DNA of 64,000 nt from Bacillus solitudinis (lineage in GTDB: Bacteria > Bacillota > Bacilli > Bacillales > Bacillaceae_D): NCBI RefSeq assembly GCF_002797395.1, contig NZ_KZ454943.1:1409768-1473767 (forward strand), given 5' to 3'. Made by a program: the position numbers and the translations under genes. Of this stretch, positions 33,386-64,000 are shown piece after piece. Under the pieces are notes generated by a model. It had not been told where the DNA came from. It ran no database searches and worked only from the letters and a program-made list of their open reading frames with translations. The number at the start of each line of letters is the position of its first letter. Position 1 is the first letter of the stretch.

Positions 33386-34261
33386 TTAGGCTCGTTTAAA
33401 TCCTTCCCCTAAGACCTCATTTGCGTCTGTAACAATGACAAACGCTTGCGGGTCAACAAGTCTAACCACTTGTTTCAATTTTGTGACCTCACGCTGACTA
33501 ACTACACACATAAGAACCGGCCGCTCTTCATCCGTATAGCCCCCCTGCCCCATCAGTTTCGTGACCCCACGATCGACATCCGCAAGCAAACTTTTTCGAA
33601 CGTCCTCAGGATAATTTGAGATAATGAGTGCTACCTTTGCATATCCTACCCCAATTTGCACTAAATCAATCGTCTTTCCTGTAACAAAAAGTGAAATAAG
33701 AGCATAAAGCGCCAACTCAAGGCCAAAGACAACCGCTGAAGTAAAGACAACCAATCCATCAATAATAAAAATACAGACACCAACAGATAATCCAGAGTAC
33801 TTATTAATAATCTGAGCAGCCAAATCTGTACCGCCCGTACTCGCATTTGCACGAAACACGGTCCCTAAACCGACCCCTACACCAATTCCCCCAAAAAGAG
33901 CACCAAGTAACGGATCTTCAAACCCAACGGACCAGTCTCTTGTCATAAAGACAACTAGTGGTAAAAAGGCTGTACCCACTAACGTTTTCACACCATATTT
34001 AAAGCCGCCAAGCAAAAGTATACCAAGAATAAATAACGGTATATTAAAAGCCCATTGTGTATAAGCAGGCTCAATCCCACCTACATAATTAACAATGGTA
34101 CTAATCCCACTAACGCCCCCAGAAGCGATTTTATTTGGTAGCAAAAAGAGGTTAAAGGTAATCGCTACAATCGCTGAACCAACGAGAATATATGTATAGT
34201 CAATCGCGTGCTGCGTCAACGGGCTTCTCGGATGTTGATTTCTTCGTCTTTTCTTATTCAT
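33386..34261 (-). CDS. yvjA: YitT-family membrane protein YvjA
   Basis: 291 residues: a basic N-terminus (KKRRRNQH), five or six membrane spans (about 20-200), then the cytosolic DUF2179 domain (about 220-280) with LMGQGGYTDEERPVLMCVV. This is the YitT/YvjA family layout. It lies next to cccB as in B. subtilis. Its transport or other role is unknown. Confidence 0.9.
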   Translation of the reverse strand: MNKKRRRNQHPRSPLTQHAIDYTYILVGSAIVAITFNLFLLPNKIASGGVSGISTIVNYVGGIEPAYTQWAFNIPLFILGILLLGGFKYGVKTLVGTAFLPLVVFMTRDWSVGFEDPLLGALFGGIGVGVGLGTVFRANASTGGTDLAAQIINKYSGLSVGVCIFIIDGLVVFTSAVVFGLELALYALISLFVTGKTIDLVQIGVGYAKVALIISNYPEDVRKSLLADVDRGVTKLMGQGGYTDEERPVLMCVVSQREVTKLKQVVRLVDPQAFVIVTDANEVLGEGFKRA

Positions 34262-34591
34262 TCATATACACCACACTTTTAAAATTTTAAGAATTTAAAG
34301 ATTAGTCTTTGCAAATCCTCAAGTAGTATAGCATCAACATGAAAAACCTGTAAATGTGATTTTTTTCTAGCATCGCCTATTGAAGGAAAACATTAAGCTT
34401 CGAATGGAATAAGAGGAGAGACCGACATAGTCGTTGATAGGACCTTAAGCGGTTTCAACCACTTAGGGGAAATTGTTTTTTTTTTGAGGGTAGGGGGTTA
34501 GCAACTTGGCTTGTGGGATCATCCTTGTTGCATTTGCGCGGCACATTGTTTCTTAGCCGCTAAACAATATTAGTAACCTTCTCATGATGGG
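34262..34591. other. Gene-free stretch upstream of yvjA
   Basis: No gene is seen. On the plus strand an imperfect stem (CCTTAAGCGG with CCACTTAGG, about 34432-34457) is followed after six bases by a run of more than ten T. This resembles a terminator or the end of a small RNA, but no plus-strand gene precedes it. Confidence 0.3.
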
Positions 34592-34869
34592 AGTTGCTGA
34601 TAAATGGGGCGAAGTTGCTGATAAAAGGCGCAAAGTTGATGATAAAGTCCATAGTTGCTGATAAACAACGCATAGTTAACGATAAAGCCTCACAGTTACT
34701 AATATTCAGCGCGTTGTTGACGATAAAAGCCTCATTGTTGCTGATAAACAACGCATAGTTGACGGAAAAGCCCAATTGTCGCTGATACCTAGACCAAAGT
34801 TGCCAATAAACCCTCAAAGTTGCTGATATCCAGCCCATAGTTGCCGAAAAATCCGCATTGTTACTGATC
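34592..34869. repeat. Degenerate 20-21-bp tandem array with core AGTTGCTGATAAA
   Basis: About 13 consecutive units of 19-21 bases. Each begins with a variant of AGTTGCTGATAAA (AGTTGATGATAAA, AGTTAACGATAAA, TGTTGACGATAAA, AGTTGCCAATAAA), followed by 7-9 variable bases that often end CCAT or GCAT. Unit lengths differ and are not multiples of three, so the open frame seen here does not keep one repeat frame. The array lies between the prfB terminator and the yvjA upstream region. It shares its core with the array at 63.3-64 kb. Confidence 0.8.
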
Positions 34870-34904
34870 CCCCCCACCCGATGTTGCCTCTCTCCACACA
34901 AAAA

Positions 34905-34945
34905 GAGGGTGTCTCAAATGGTTGATTCCCATTTAAGACACCCTC
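34905..34945 (-). terminator. Terminator after prfB
   Basis: A long stem (GAGGGTGTCT/AGACACCCTC outside, AAATGG/CCATTT inside) is followed by TTTTTG on the minus strand. Confidence 0.9.
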
Positions 34946-34965: not shown

Positions 34966-36088
34966 TTATCCTTCTTGATTCAGCAGATAGGCTAAAGATG
35001 TACGAAGATACGCATCGATAAACCCATCGAGATCACCGTCCATCACTCCACTTGTGTTTCCAATTTCAAAGTTGGTGCGATGATCCTTGACCATGCTATA
35101 GGGATGAAAAACGTAAGAACGGATTTGACTTCCCCAGCCAATCTCTTTTTGCTCACCGCGTATCTCTAAAAGTTGCTGCTGTTGTTCTTCAATTTTTAAT
35201 TGATAAAGTTTTGAACGCATCATCTTCATTGCATGCTCACGGTTCTTAATTTGTGAACGCTCGGTTTGACATGTGACGACTGTGTTTGTTGGTAAATGAG
35301 TAATTCGCACAGCTGAATCTGTCGTATTAATATGCTGACCACCCGCTCCACTTGCACGGTACGTATCAACCTTCAAATCCTCCGTTTGAATATCAATTTC
35401 GACGCTATCATCAAGCTCTGGCATAATCTCACACGAGACAAACGAGGTATGACGACGTCCCGACGAGTCAAATGGCGAAATACGGACGAGGCGATGAACC
35501 CCTTTTTCCGCCTTCAAATACCCATAGGCATTATGACCTTTAATCGAAAGCGTGACACTCTTTACGCCAGCTTCGTCACCAGGTAAGTAGTCTAGCGTCT
35601 CGACCTTATAGCCTTTGCGCTCCGCCCAACGTGTGTACATCCGCAAAAGCATCGATGCCCAGTCTTGAGACTCGGTTCCCCCGGCCCCAGGATGAAGCTC
35701 AAGGATCGCATTATTTTTATCATAGGGCTCACTAAGAAGAAGCTGAAGCTCATAATCATTGAGTTCCTGAATGAGCTTCTTGATACCAGAAACAAGCTCT
35801 GCCTGAAGCTCTGCATCGTCTTCTTCTTTAACAAGCTCATACGAAACCTCTAAATCTTCAAATGTCGTCTCAAGCTCTAGAAAGGTATTCACCTGCTCTT
35901 TTAATCCGTTTGCTTCATTAATAACGGTTTGAGCAGCTTCTTGATTATTCCAGAATTCGGGGTCTGACATTTTTTCGTCTAACTCTGCAATTCGTTCTTG
36001 CTTTTGGTCGAGGTCAAAGAGACCCCCTAAAGTCTTTTAATCGTTTCAACATAATGGCAAGCTCTTGTTTAACTTCTACTAATTCCAT
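34966..36088 (-). CDS. prfB: Peptide chain release factor 2, with programmed +1 frameshift
   Basis: RF2 terminates translation at UGA and UAA. The stop-codon tripeptide SPF is in [10 protein letters not shown], and GGQ is in GAGGQHIN. The main frame (34966-36015) has no start of its own at the right place. An upstream frame starts with ATG at 36088 (AGAGGTG upstream), runs 24 codons ending R-G-S-L, and meets TGA at 36014-36016. Skipping one base there joins the frames and gives 373 residues. Translation is thus self-regulated by RF2 level. Confidence 0.95.
36013..36026 (-). promoter_or_regulatory. RF2 +1 frameshift site
   Basis: The minus strand reads AGGGGGTCTCTTTGAC: an internal Shine-Dalgarno (AGGGGG), then the slippery CTT followed by the TGA stop and C. 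This is the conserved bacterial prfB recoding signal. Confidence 0.95.
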
Positions 36089-62589: not shown

Positions 62590-63222
62590 ATGCTAGCAAG
62601 CTACCAAACCGTAAAAGGCAATGGAACACACGAAATTGTTATCCAAAAGTCACGGTTCATTGCTCACTTTATGCGGGCAACGACGGAAGAAGAGGCTCAA
62701 AACTTTATAGAAGGCCTAAAAAAAGAGCACTGGAATGCCAATCACAATTGCTCCGCATACTTAATTGGTGAGCGAGATCACATCCAAAAAGCAAATGACG
62801 ACGGGGAACCCAGCGGAACAGCAGGCGTCCCGATGCTTGAAGTGTTAAAGAAACGTCAGCTAAAGGATACCGTCGTCGTCGTCACCCGCTACTTTGGTGG
62901 GATTAAACTTGGAGCAGGAGGATTGATTCGCGCCTATGGTAGCTCAGTGAGTGAAGGCTTAAACGCTGTCGGGGTCGTGAACTGCCAGCTTATGCAAATC
63001 ATTCATACGAACATCGACTACCACTGGCTCGGCAAGGTAGAAAATGAACTTCGCCAATCCCCCTATCAGCTTAAAGAAATCAGCTACCTCGATCAGGTCG
63101 ATGTCCAAGCCTACGTCGAGGTCGCAAGCGTCGATACGTTTACCGAATGGATGACAAATCTAACGAACGGCCAAGCCACAATTGAAAAGGGCGAGGTTGA
63201 GTATCTAGAAACCGATGTGTGA
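62590..63222 (+). CDS. yvyE: YvyE, YigZ/IMPACT family protein
   Basis: 210 residues of the UPF0029 family. The N-terminal Impact domain has NHNCSAYLIG, DDGEPSGTAGVPMLEVL and VVVTRYFGGIKLGAGGLIRAY; a C-terminal DUF1949 domain follows (about 140-205). AAGGAGG lies 7 bases before the ATG. Homologues take part in translation-related control in eukaryotes. The bacterial role is not settled. Divergent from degS, as in B. subtilis. Confidence 0.95.
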   Translation: MLASYQTVKGNGTHEIVIQKSRFIAHFMRATTEEEAQNFIEGLKKEHWNANHNCSAYLIGERDHIQKANDDGEPSGTAGVPMLEVLKKRQLKDTVVVVTRYFGGIKLGAGGLIRAYGSSVSEGLNAVGVVNCQLMQIIHTNIDYHWLGKVENELRQSPYQLKEISYLDQVDVQAYVEVASVDTFTEWMTNLTNGQATIEKGEVEYLETDV

Positions 63223-63240: not shown

Positions 63241-63281
63241 AGCAGAAAGAGCGCCCATGCAAGTGTGGCGCTCTTTCTGCT
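63241..63281 (+). terminator. Terminator after yvyE
   Basis: A perfect 15-bp stem (AGCAGAAAGAGCGCC and complement) with an 11-base loop. U residues after it are few, so it is very stable but not a textbook terminator. Confidence 0.6.
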
Positions 63282-63337
63282 GCGGGGAGTGGGGAGTGCC
63301 TACGCTGCGGCGTGGAGTGGGAGGCTGGGTGGGCGGT

Positions 63338-64000
63338 TTTCGGCAACTTTGACACTCTTTTCAGCCACTCCGACCGATTTATCAGCAACTTCCCACTCCT
63401 TTTCAGCAACTCTGCCTCCTTTTTCAGCAACTTCTCGGTTTTCGGCAACTTTAACACTTTTTTCAGCCACTCCGACCGATTTATCAGCAACTTCCCTCTC
63501 CTTTTCGGCAACTCTGCCTCCTTTTTCAGCAACTGCTCGGTTTTCGGCAACTTTGACACTCGTTTCAGCCACTTCGACCGATTTATCAGCAACTTCCGCC
63601 TCCTTTTCGGCAACTCCGCCTCCTTTTTCAGCAACTTCTCGGTTTTCGGCAACTTTAACACTCTTTTCAGCCACTCCGACCGATTTATCCGCAACTCCCC
63701 TCTCCTTTTCGGCAACTCCGCCTCCTTTTTCAGCAACTTCTCGGTTTTCGGCAACTTTAACACTTTTTTCAGCCACTCCGACCGATTTATCAGCAACTTC
63801 CCTCTCCTTTTCGGCAACTCTGCCTCCTTTTTCAGCAACTCCTCGGTTTTCGGCAACTTTGACACTCTTTTCAGCCACTCCGACCGATTTATCAGCAACT
63901 TCCCTCTCCTTTTCGGCAACTCCGCCTCCTTTTTCAGCAACTCCTCGGTTTTCGGCAACTTTGGCTCTCTTTTCAGCCACTTCGACCAATTTATCAGCAA
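63338..64000 (-). repeat. 102-bp higher-order tandem repeat running off the right edge
   Basis: The word GACCGAT starts at 63372, 63474, 63576, 63678, 63780, 63882 and in changed form at 63984, always 102 bases apart. Each period is made of five related subunits of 21, 21, 18, 21 and 21 bases that start AGTTGCTGATAAA, AGTGGCTGAAAAG, AGTTGCCGAAAAC, AGTTGCTGAAAAA or AGTTGCCGAAAAG on the minus strand. All lengths are multiples of three, so long frames stay open. One would encode a 34-residue repeat of VADKSVG, VAEKSVK, VAENRE, VAEKGG. No start lies in the window, so coding is possible but not shown. Confidence 0.9.

Follow-up and report, generated by a model that had tools for sequence, protein, structure and literature searches.

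The window, the whole 64,000-nucleotide stretch of the Bacillus solitudinis genome that was analysed (G000:C1:1409768-1473767), contains between prfB and a YitT-family gene a tandem array of short direct repeats with a conserved core and divergent spacers. Arrays of this core, with the same spacing of 20-21 bp, lie in intergenic space elsewhere in this genome and in other Bacillales; the arrays we studied show a strand polarity, and in several genomes they adjoin a gene of the NERD family. Judging from the sequence, we tentatively read the array as a row of putative sites, phased at two helical turns, for a sequence-specific DNA-binding factor, for which the NERD-domain protein is the leading candidate; we place this reading slightly short of even probability. 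The array is a member of a published class of 20-21 nt Bacillus tandem repeats (PMC8161180), to which the recurring core, the division into core and spacer, the polarity, the setting at gene ends and the NERD linkage are added here. The features of the window are collected in Table 1.

Table 1. Arrays and flanking features in the window (positions counted from its first nucleotide).
Feature	Positions	Strand	Basis
Gene for a YitT-family membrane protein, across the window array from prfB	33386..34261	-	Pfam YitT_membrane and DUF2179
Promoter-like TTTACA-18-TATACT upstream of the YitT-family gene	34325..34354	-	Weak: one match versus shuffle mean 1.6
Window array: 14 direct repeats, units 19-21 bp, core AGTTGCTGATAAA, spacers 7-9 bp	34592..34879	+	Tandem Repeats Finder, core matches
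prfB intrinsic terminator, 17-bp stem + TTTTT, ~25 bp away from the window array	34905..34945	-	Hairpin in sequence
prfB, peptide chain release factor 2	34966..35970	-	Pfam PCRF and RF-1
yvyE-type (UPF0029/DUF1949) gene	62590..63222	+	Pfam
Strong hairpin following the yvyE-type gene; no clear U-tract	63242..63280	+	Seen in sequence
Second array, same core, 102-bp higher-order repeats	63334..64000	-	Tandem Repeats Finder, score 1173

Read by eye, the window array consists of contiguous units joined exactly, and its core varies by T/C changes at two YG steps. The preliminary description had the unit length right and gave about 13 units, one fewer than we counted. Tandem Repeats Finder reported positions 34613-34868 with a period of 41 (2 x 20.5) and a score of 179, and also a period of 21; apart from the two arrays, all that it listed in the 64 kb were short repeats in roughly two copies. 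The core matched 11 times at three or fewer mismatches in 283 bp, while 500 dinucleotide shuffles gave a mean of 0.28 matches and a maximum of 3, so that the claim of a core repeated beyond chance stands. Pairwise identity within the array was 0.74 for the core and 0.51 for the spacers, compared with 0.39 for shuffled spacers. The irregularity of the array lies in spacer sequence and unit length, and the core is not affected: its mean number of mismatches (1.54) is within the range for arrays of the same genome (1.13-2.60), and the term degenerate, used earlier for this array, does not set its core apart. As had been proposed, the same core builds the second array in the opposite orientation; the two consensus sequences aligned with a score of 41, against a mean of 13.6 and a maximum of 24 in 1000 shuffles. 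The further proposal that one array is old and the other young is not borne out by the core, which is equally intact in both.

Both arrays had been placed between a terminator-like hairpin and a neighbouring gene. For the window array this was borne out, with the prfB terminator on one side and the YitT-family gene on the other. For the second array, which runs past the end of the window to genome position ~1474121, a hairpin does stand on the yvyE side, although it lacks a clear U-tract, and the far side is formed by the terminator of a convergent EamA gene. A plus-strand terminator-like sequence, CCTTAAG...CTTAGGG followed by a T run, also lies at 34430-34490, in the gap that separates the YitT-family gene from the window array; ahead of it, no gene on the plus strand is obvious.

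In the B. solitudinis genome we found about eight arrays of at least four core units, none inside a gene, starting at about 1444360, 1473095, 1673915, 1729804, 1738403, 1817440, 1818581 and 4214163. Together with further arrays in related Bacillales, these confirm a dispersed repeat family. Forty further 20-kb samples of the genome (800 kb) yielded no additional clear array with this core, and a profile search of the genome gave no new array locus among the 150 candidates listed. Among the matches listed, only a handful of copies of the exact 12-mer GTTGCYGAWAAA fall outside arrays, and this rarity makes the core unlike a dispersed single-copy signal. Spacers repeat inside one array, but those of different arrays in this genome are nearly as unlike as shuffled sequence, while the core is common to all arrays; the arrays are therefore not copies of one another, and whole units have not been pasted between sites. 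Because arrays were located by means of the core, its information content is partly circular, whereas the lack of shared spacers is not affected. In every species examined, the units cluster around a length of 20-21 bp, whatever the core, with a mode of 21 in B. solitudinis. Higher-order units of 102 bp and 81 bp clearly show duplication within arrays; self-amplification is no more than a proposal, for which the nuclease-like gene beside arrays would be a possible agent.

Six of the seven merged sites in B. solitudinis lie within 376 kb on the left arm (Monte Carlo p ~1e-4, for a region picked after the fact). The GC skew of this genome changes sign at ~1.99-2.09 Mb, which should be the replication origin. 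The arrays of the sister species (G001) fall mostly in the zone matching this cluster, as do part of those in G024. Such clustering is as compatible with local spread as it is with function. Other tandem repeats occur in the genome as well. A short 21-bp array, TTATTCGCGGTTTTGCTCAGG, at L238:14713-14783 (G000:C1:1714713-1714783) includes TCGCGG, which has been reported as the signal of the 21-nt repeats in B. weihaiensis (PMC8161180). Two arrays are unrelated, one of 61 bp in 12.5 copies at L240:12034-12798 (G000:C1:1872034-1872798) and one of 67 bp at L235:16959-17122, roughly where the sister species carries a 20-bp array.

We measured polarity at 90 merged loci from 12 genomes, 87 of them scorable, computing GC skew with the arrays masked. 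The core strand was the leading strand by GC skew at 69 of the 87 loci, including 23 of the 27 between convergent genes; of the eight loci in B. solitudinis, only the window array disagrees. This polarity is suggestive as a hint of function, as G-rich cores could passively track strand composition; the G024 core GGCTCATAA, which has equal G and C, still matches the leading strand at 18 of 23 loci. In tandem gene layouts, the array was nearer to the 3' end of the upstream gene at 35 of 49 loci (median 85 versus 214 bp) and co-oriented with that gene at 39 of 49. The upstream gene's terminator was recognisable at about half of array loci. Mapping against terminators, which the preliminary description had advised, placed many arrays just behind terminators or gene ends. 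Two arrays of the sister species, at L219:4438-4870 and L221:795-868, set in right at an intrinsic terminator's U-tract.

The core GTYGNYGATAA returns in distant families of Bacillales, whereas close relatives carry private dialects. A relaxed two-unit pattern of the core was present in 9 of 397 genomes of the order, against two for reversed-pattern controls; the strong cases, mostly from different families, are B. solitudinis, Bacillus ectoiniformans (G147), G348, G395, G204, G134 and G069. Within the family of B. solitudinis, the strict core forms arrays in only two other genomes, those of Halalkalibacter alkalisediminis (G015) and Alkalihalobacillus deserti (G016). The sister species has the core YGMTGATAA (20 matches), and G024 has 212 matches of its private core, which has none in 11 other genomes. 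In G024 we also observed a composite dispersed repeat of ~190-330 bp, consisting of five 21-bp units with the private core and a spacer, often of ~130 bp, that contains the conserved words TCTTTGAAAA, TTGGCTGG and ATTGAATNAAAAGCCAGCCAA. It is present in 1-6 tandem copies at more than 20 loci, with variable parts private to each locus (for example, L278:16392-17461 and L275:9208-9793, among loci L272-L282).

Array positions are partly shared. The site 3' of yvyE carries an array in B. solitudinis, H. alkalisediminis and A. deserti, and not in the sister species. Behind prfB, among 30 genomes of the family, the array described here occurs only in B. solitudinis; some of the others have unrelated arrays of 20-21 bp or 52 bp, and most have none. 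The position behind the prfB terminator is thus a recurrent array site, with unrelated arrays at L192 (G007), L196 (G022), L198 (G019), L207 (G004) and L209 (G024). G204 and G395, which are ~90% identical, share orthologous arrays with differing numbers of units, in which 10.8% of core sites have changed compared with 18.2% of spacer sites (Fisher p 0.011, halved counts).

To find genes associated with arrays, we compared 1,076 proteins from array loci without prior choice of family, at loci selected for having arrays. Within these array loci, the NERD family (PF08378; Pfam match E 5e-20) adjoins an array in seven genomes, in 7 of 7 members, while the next families do so in three genomes. The chance product for this adjacency was 1e-6, or 8e-5 with one genome counted per gene context. 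In all seven, an array begins within ~50 bp downstream of the NERD stop codon in the sense orientation, and in four of them (G000, G001, G024 and, in degenerate form, G147) further cores lie 5' of the gene. The genomes span three GTDB families (G000, G001, G015, G016 and G024; G134; G147), and the gene's surroundings vary, with upp or a different gene upstream in G000 and G001, yvyE in G015 and G016, and other genes in G024, G134 and G147. The array loci examined in G348, G395, G204, G069 and G366 contained no NERD gene.

The seven NERD sequences all have the motif D...EVK[NH], as in PD-(D/E)XK nucleases, and the protein also carries a CxxC...CPxC Cys4 motif. A C-terminal pattern, ITNxEAR...KRxL...GxxY, is suggestive of a winged helix; structure prediction from two sequences reached a pLDDT of 36, too poor to back that reading. 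The B. solitudinis gene itself (L187:8066-9048; G000:C1:1817565-1818547) sits between two arrays, and its frame breaks after ~205 residues, the C-terminal part continuing in another frame. The arrays of this genome may therefore be relics, or may be read by another factor. We found the NERD protein in no plasmids and in no viral contigs; phages gave one weak match, and PADLOC and NCBIfam gave only weak matches, to the PglW and MAD6 defence proteins. No paper linking NERD genes to tandem repeats was found in our incomplete coverage of the literature.

The array, its division into core and spacer, the spacing, location, polarity and gene linkage are observed; what follows on binding, on the factor's identity and on any function is inferred from them. 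The 11-13 bp core would be the recognition site of a sequence-specific DNA-binding factor, and cores spaced every 20-21 bp, or two helical turns, would set the bound molecules on one face of the DNA. Local tandem duplication would make arrays grow and shrink, copying the spacers along, while recognition by a single factor would hold the core constant across the arrays of a genome. The NERD-domain protein, with its PD-(D/E)XK-like motif (D...EVK), Cys4 motif and winged-helix-like C-terminal segment, would be the foremost candidate for that factor. Local chromosome organisation, or a repeat economy driven by a nuclease, is the probable role of the arrays, which would be retained at the least harmful places, mostly past gene 3' ends on the leading strand. 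A more specific proposal, which we consider rather unlikely at present, is that arrays and NERD gene constitute a single two-component system of the Bacillales, in which the protein would read the core, cut or bridge DNA at that site, and so drive tandem amplification or organise the origin-proximal zone, core dialect and protein co-evolving.

No binder would be needed if the arrays were neutral or selfish minisatellites, generated by slippage and unequal recombination wherever they are harmless, mostly behind terminators, around a core that was inherited or is mutationally favoured. The position in 3' intergenic space, the clustering in one chromosome zone, the differing copy numbers of orthologous arrays and the fast turnover seen behind prfB would all follow. 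This account leaves unexplained why arrays share cores and not spacers, why the two-turn spacing is constant across dialects, and what lies behind the polarity and the repeated NERD linkage, and we regard it as a serious contender that is nonetheless doubtful. A role at the RNA level, with arrays read through as 3' UTRs or as small RNAs that sponge protein or other RNAs (as Subirana and Messeguer proposed), seems improbable to us. Co-orientation with the upstream gene and the position close behind the NERD stop codon agree with it, as does transcription of the related 52-nt repeats in B. coagulans (PMC8625621). Against it, neither strand of the window array folded better than shuffled sequence (z 0.65 and 2.28), the arrays had no match in Rfam, many lie behind strong terminators, and arrays between convergent genes also track the replication strand.

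It is very unlikely that the arrays encode short repetitive proteins (frame VADK). Some long arrays of B. solitudinis, with units of 18, 21 and 42 bp, are open in several frames; however, 20-bp units and the mixed 19/20/21-bp units of the window array break every reading frame, there is no natural start, and openness of the reverse strand reflects a motif that has no stop codon there. Several other candidates were rejected. A translation-stop trap (TGATAA in the core) fails since many units read GCCGAAAA, without a stop; a Rho-utilisation site, since the sense strand is the C-rich one in some cases and not in others; and a cluster of DnaA boxes (TTATNCACA sites), since the reverse core TTATCRNCRAC has R and N at the C and A of the box. 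A CRISPR array is inconsistent with a core of 11-13 bp and spacers of 7-9 bp, which recur within arrays, and with the lack of long constant repeats. The arrays had no match in plasmids or phages, against an origin there, and plasmid iterons proper were rejected because no replication initiator is found among the flanks (prfB, YitT, yvyE, EamA, PRiA4_ORF3, SDR, GGDEF, HlyD, SLH and NERD).

The class to which the array belongs was described by Subirana and Messeguer in 2021 as Bacillus repeats of 20-21 or 52 nt, constant in size, species-specific in sequence, with short characteristic signals and mostly non-coding, for which they suggested a polymerising nucleoid protein or small RNAs (PMC8161180). 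The unit size and number of the window array agree with that class (20-21 nt, at least four repeats), as do the several intergenic arrays per genome and the partial conservation of array positions. The short signal is species-specific in that the core is in all B. solitudinis arrays and differs in G001 and G024, yet it returns in distant families. The main text of that paper does not mention terminators, convergent genes, the leading strand or a GATAAA core (PMC8161180). Plasmid iterons, too, are repeated in direct orientation at roughly two helical turns and presumably bind protein on one face, but the arrays here are chromosomal and dispersed over many loci, beside identified genes other than replication initiators. 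REP elements with RAYT genes are also intergenic repeats that are dispersed and species-specific, and the dedicated protein gene embedded among them may have a counterpart in the NERD gene, which abuts arrays in seven genomes with cores on both sides in four; in contrast, the arrays here are direct and tandem rather than palindromic, show no sign of folding, and accompany a NERD-type gene instead of a Y1 transposase. By analogy, eukaryotic minisatellites of the Jeffreys type combine a common core with a locus-specific remainder of the unit, although the arrays here are bacterial, with a fixed two-turn period and strand polarity. The centromere-like sites bound by RacA in B. subtilis are similarly enriched near the origin (the arrays here on the left arm only), but they are GC-rich inverted repeats.

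No partner protein, polarity or mechanism had been assigned to the Bacillus tandem repeats of constant size and variable sequence. A NERD family abutting arrays in seven genomes yields a testable pair, with one protein and one core per species. Co-evolution of core dialect and NERD protein would explain how a species-specific sequence goes with a constant unit size, a puzzle since 2020. If this is true, bacteria would possess a repeat system whose recognition code changes, of use to chromosome biology and to the study of how repeats spread without transposition.
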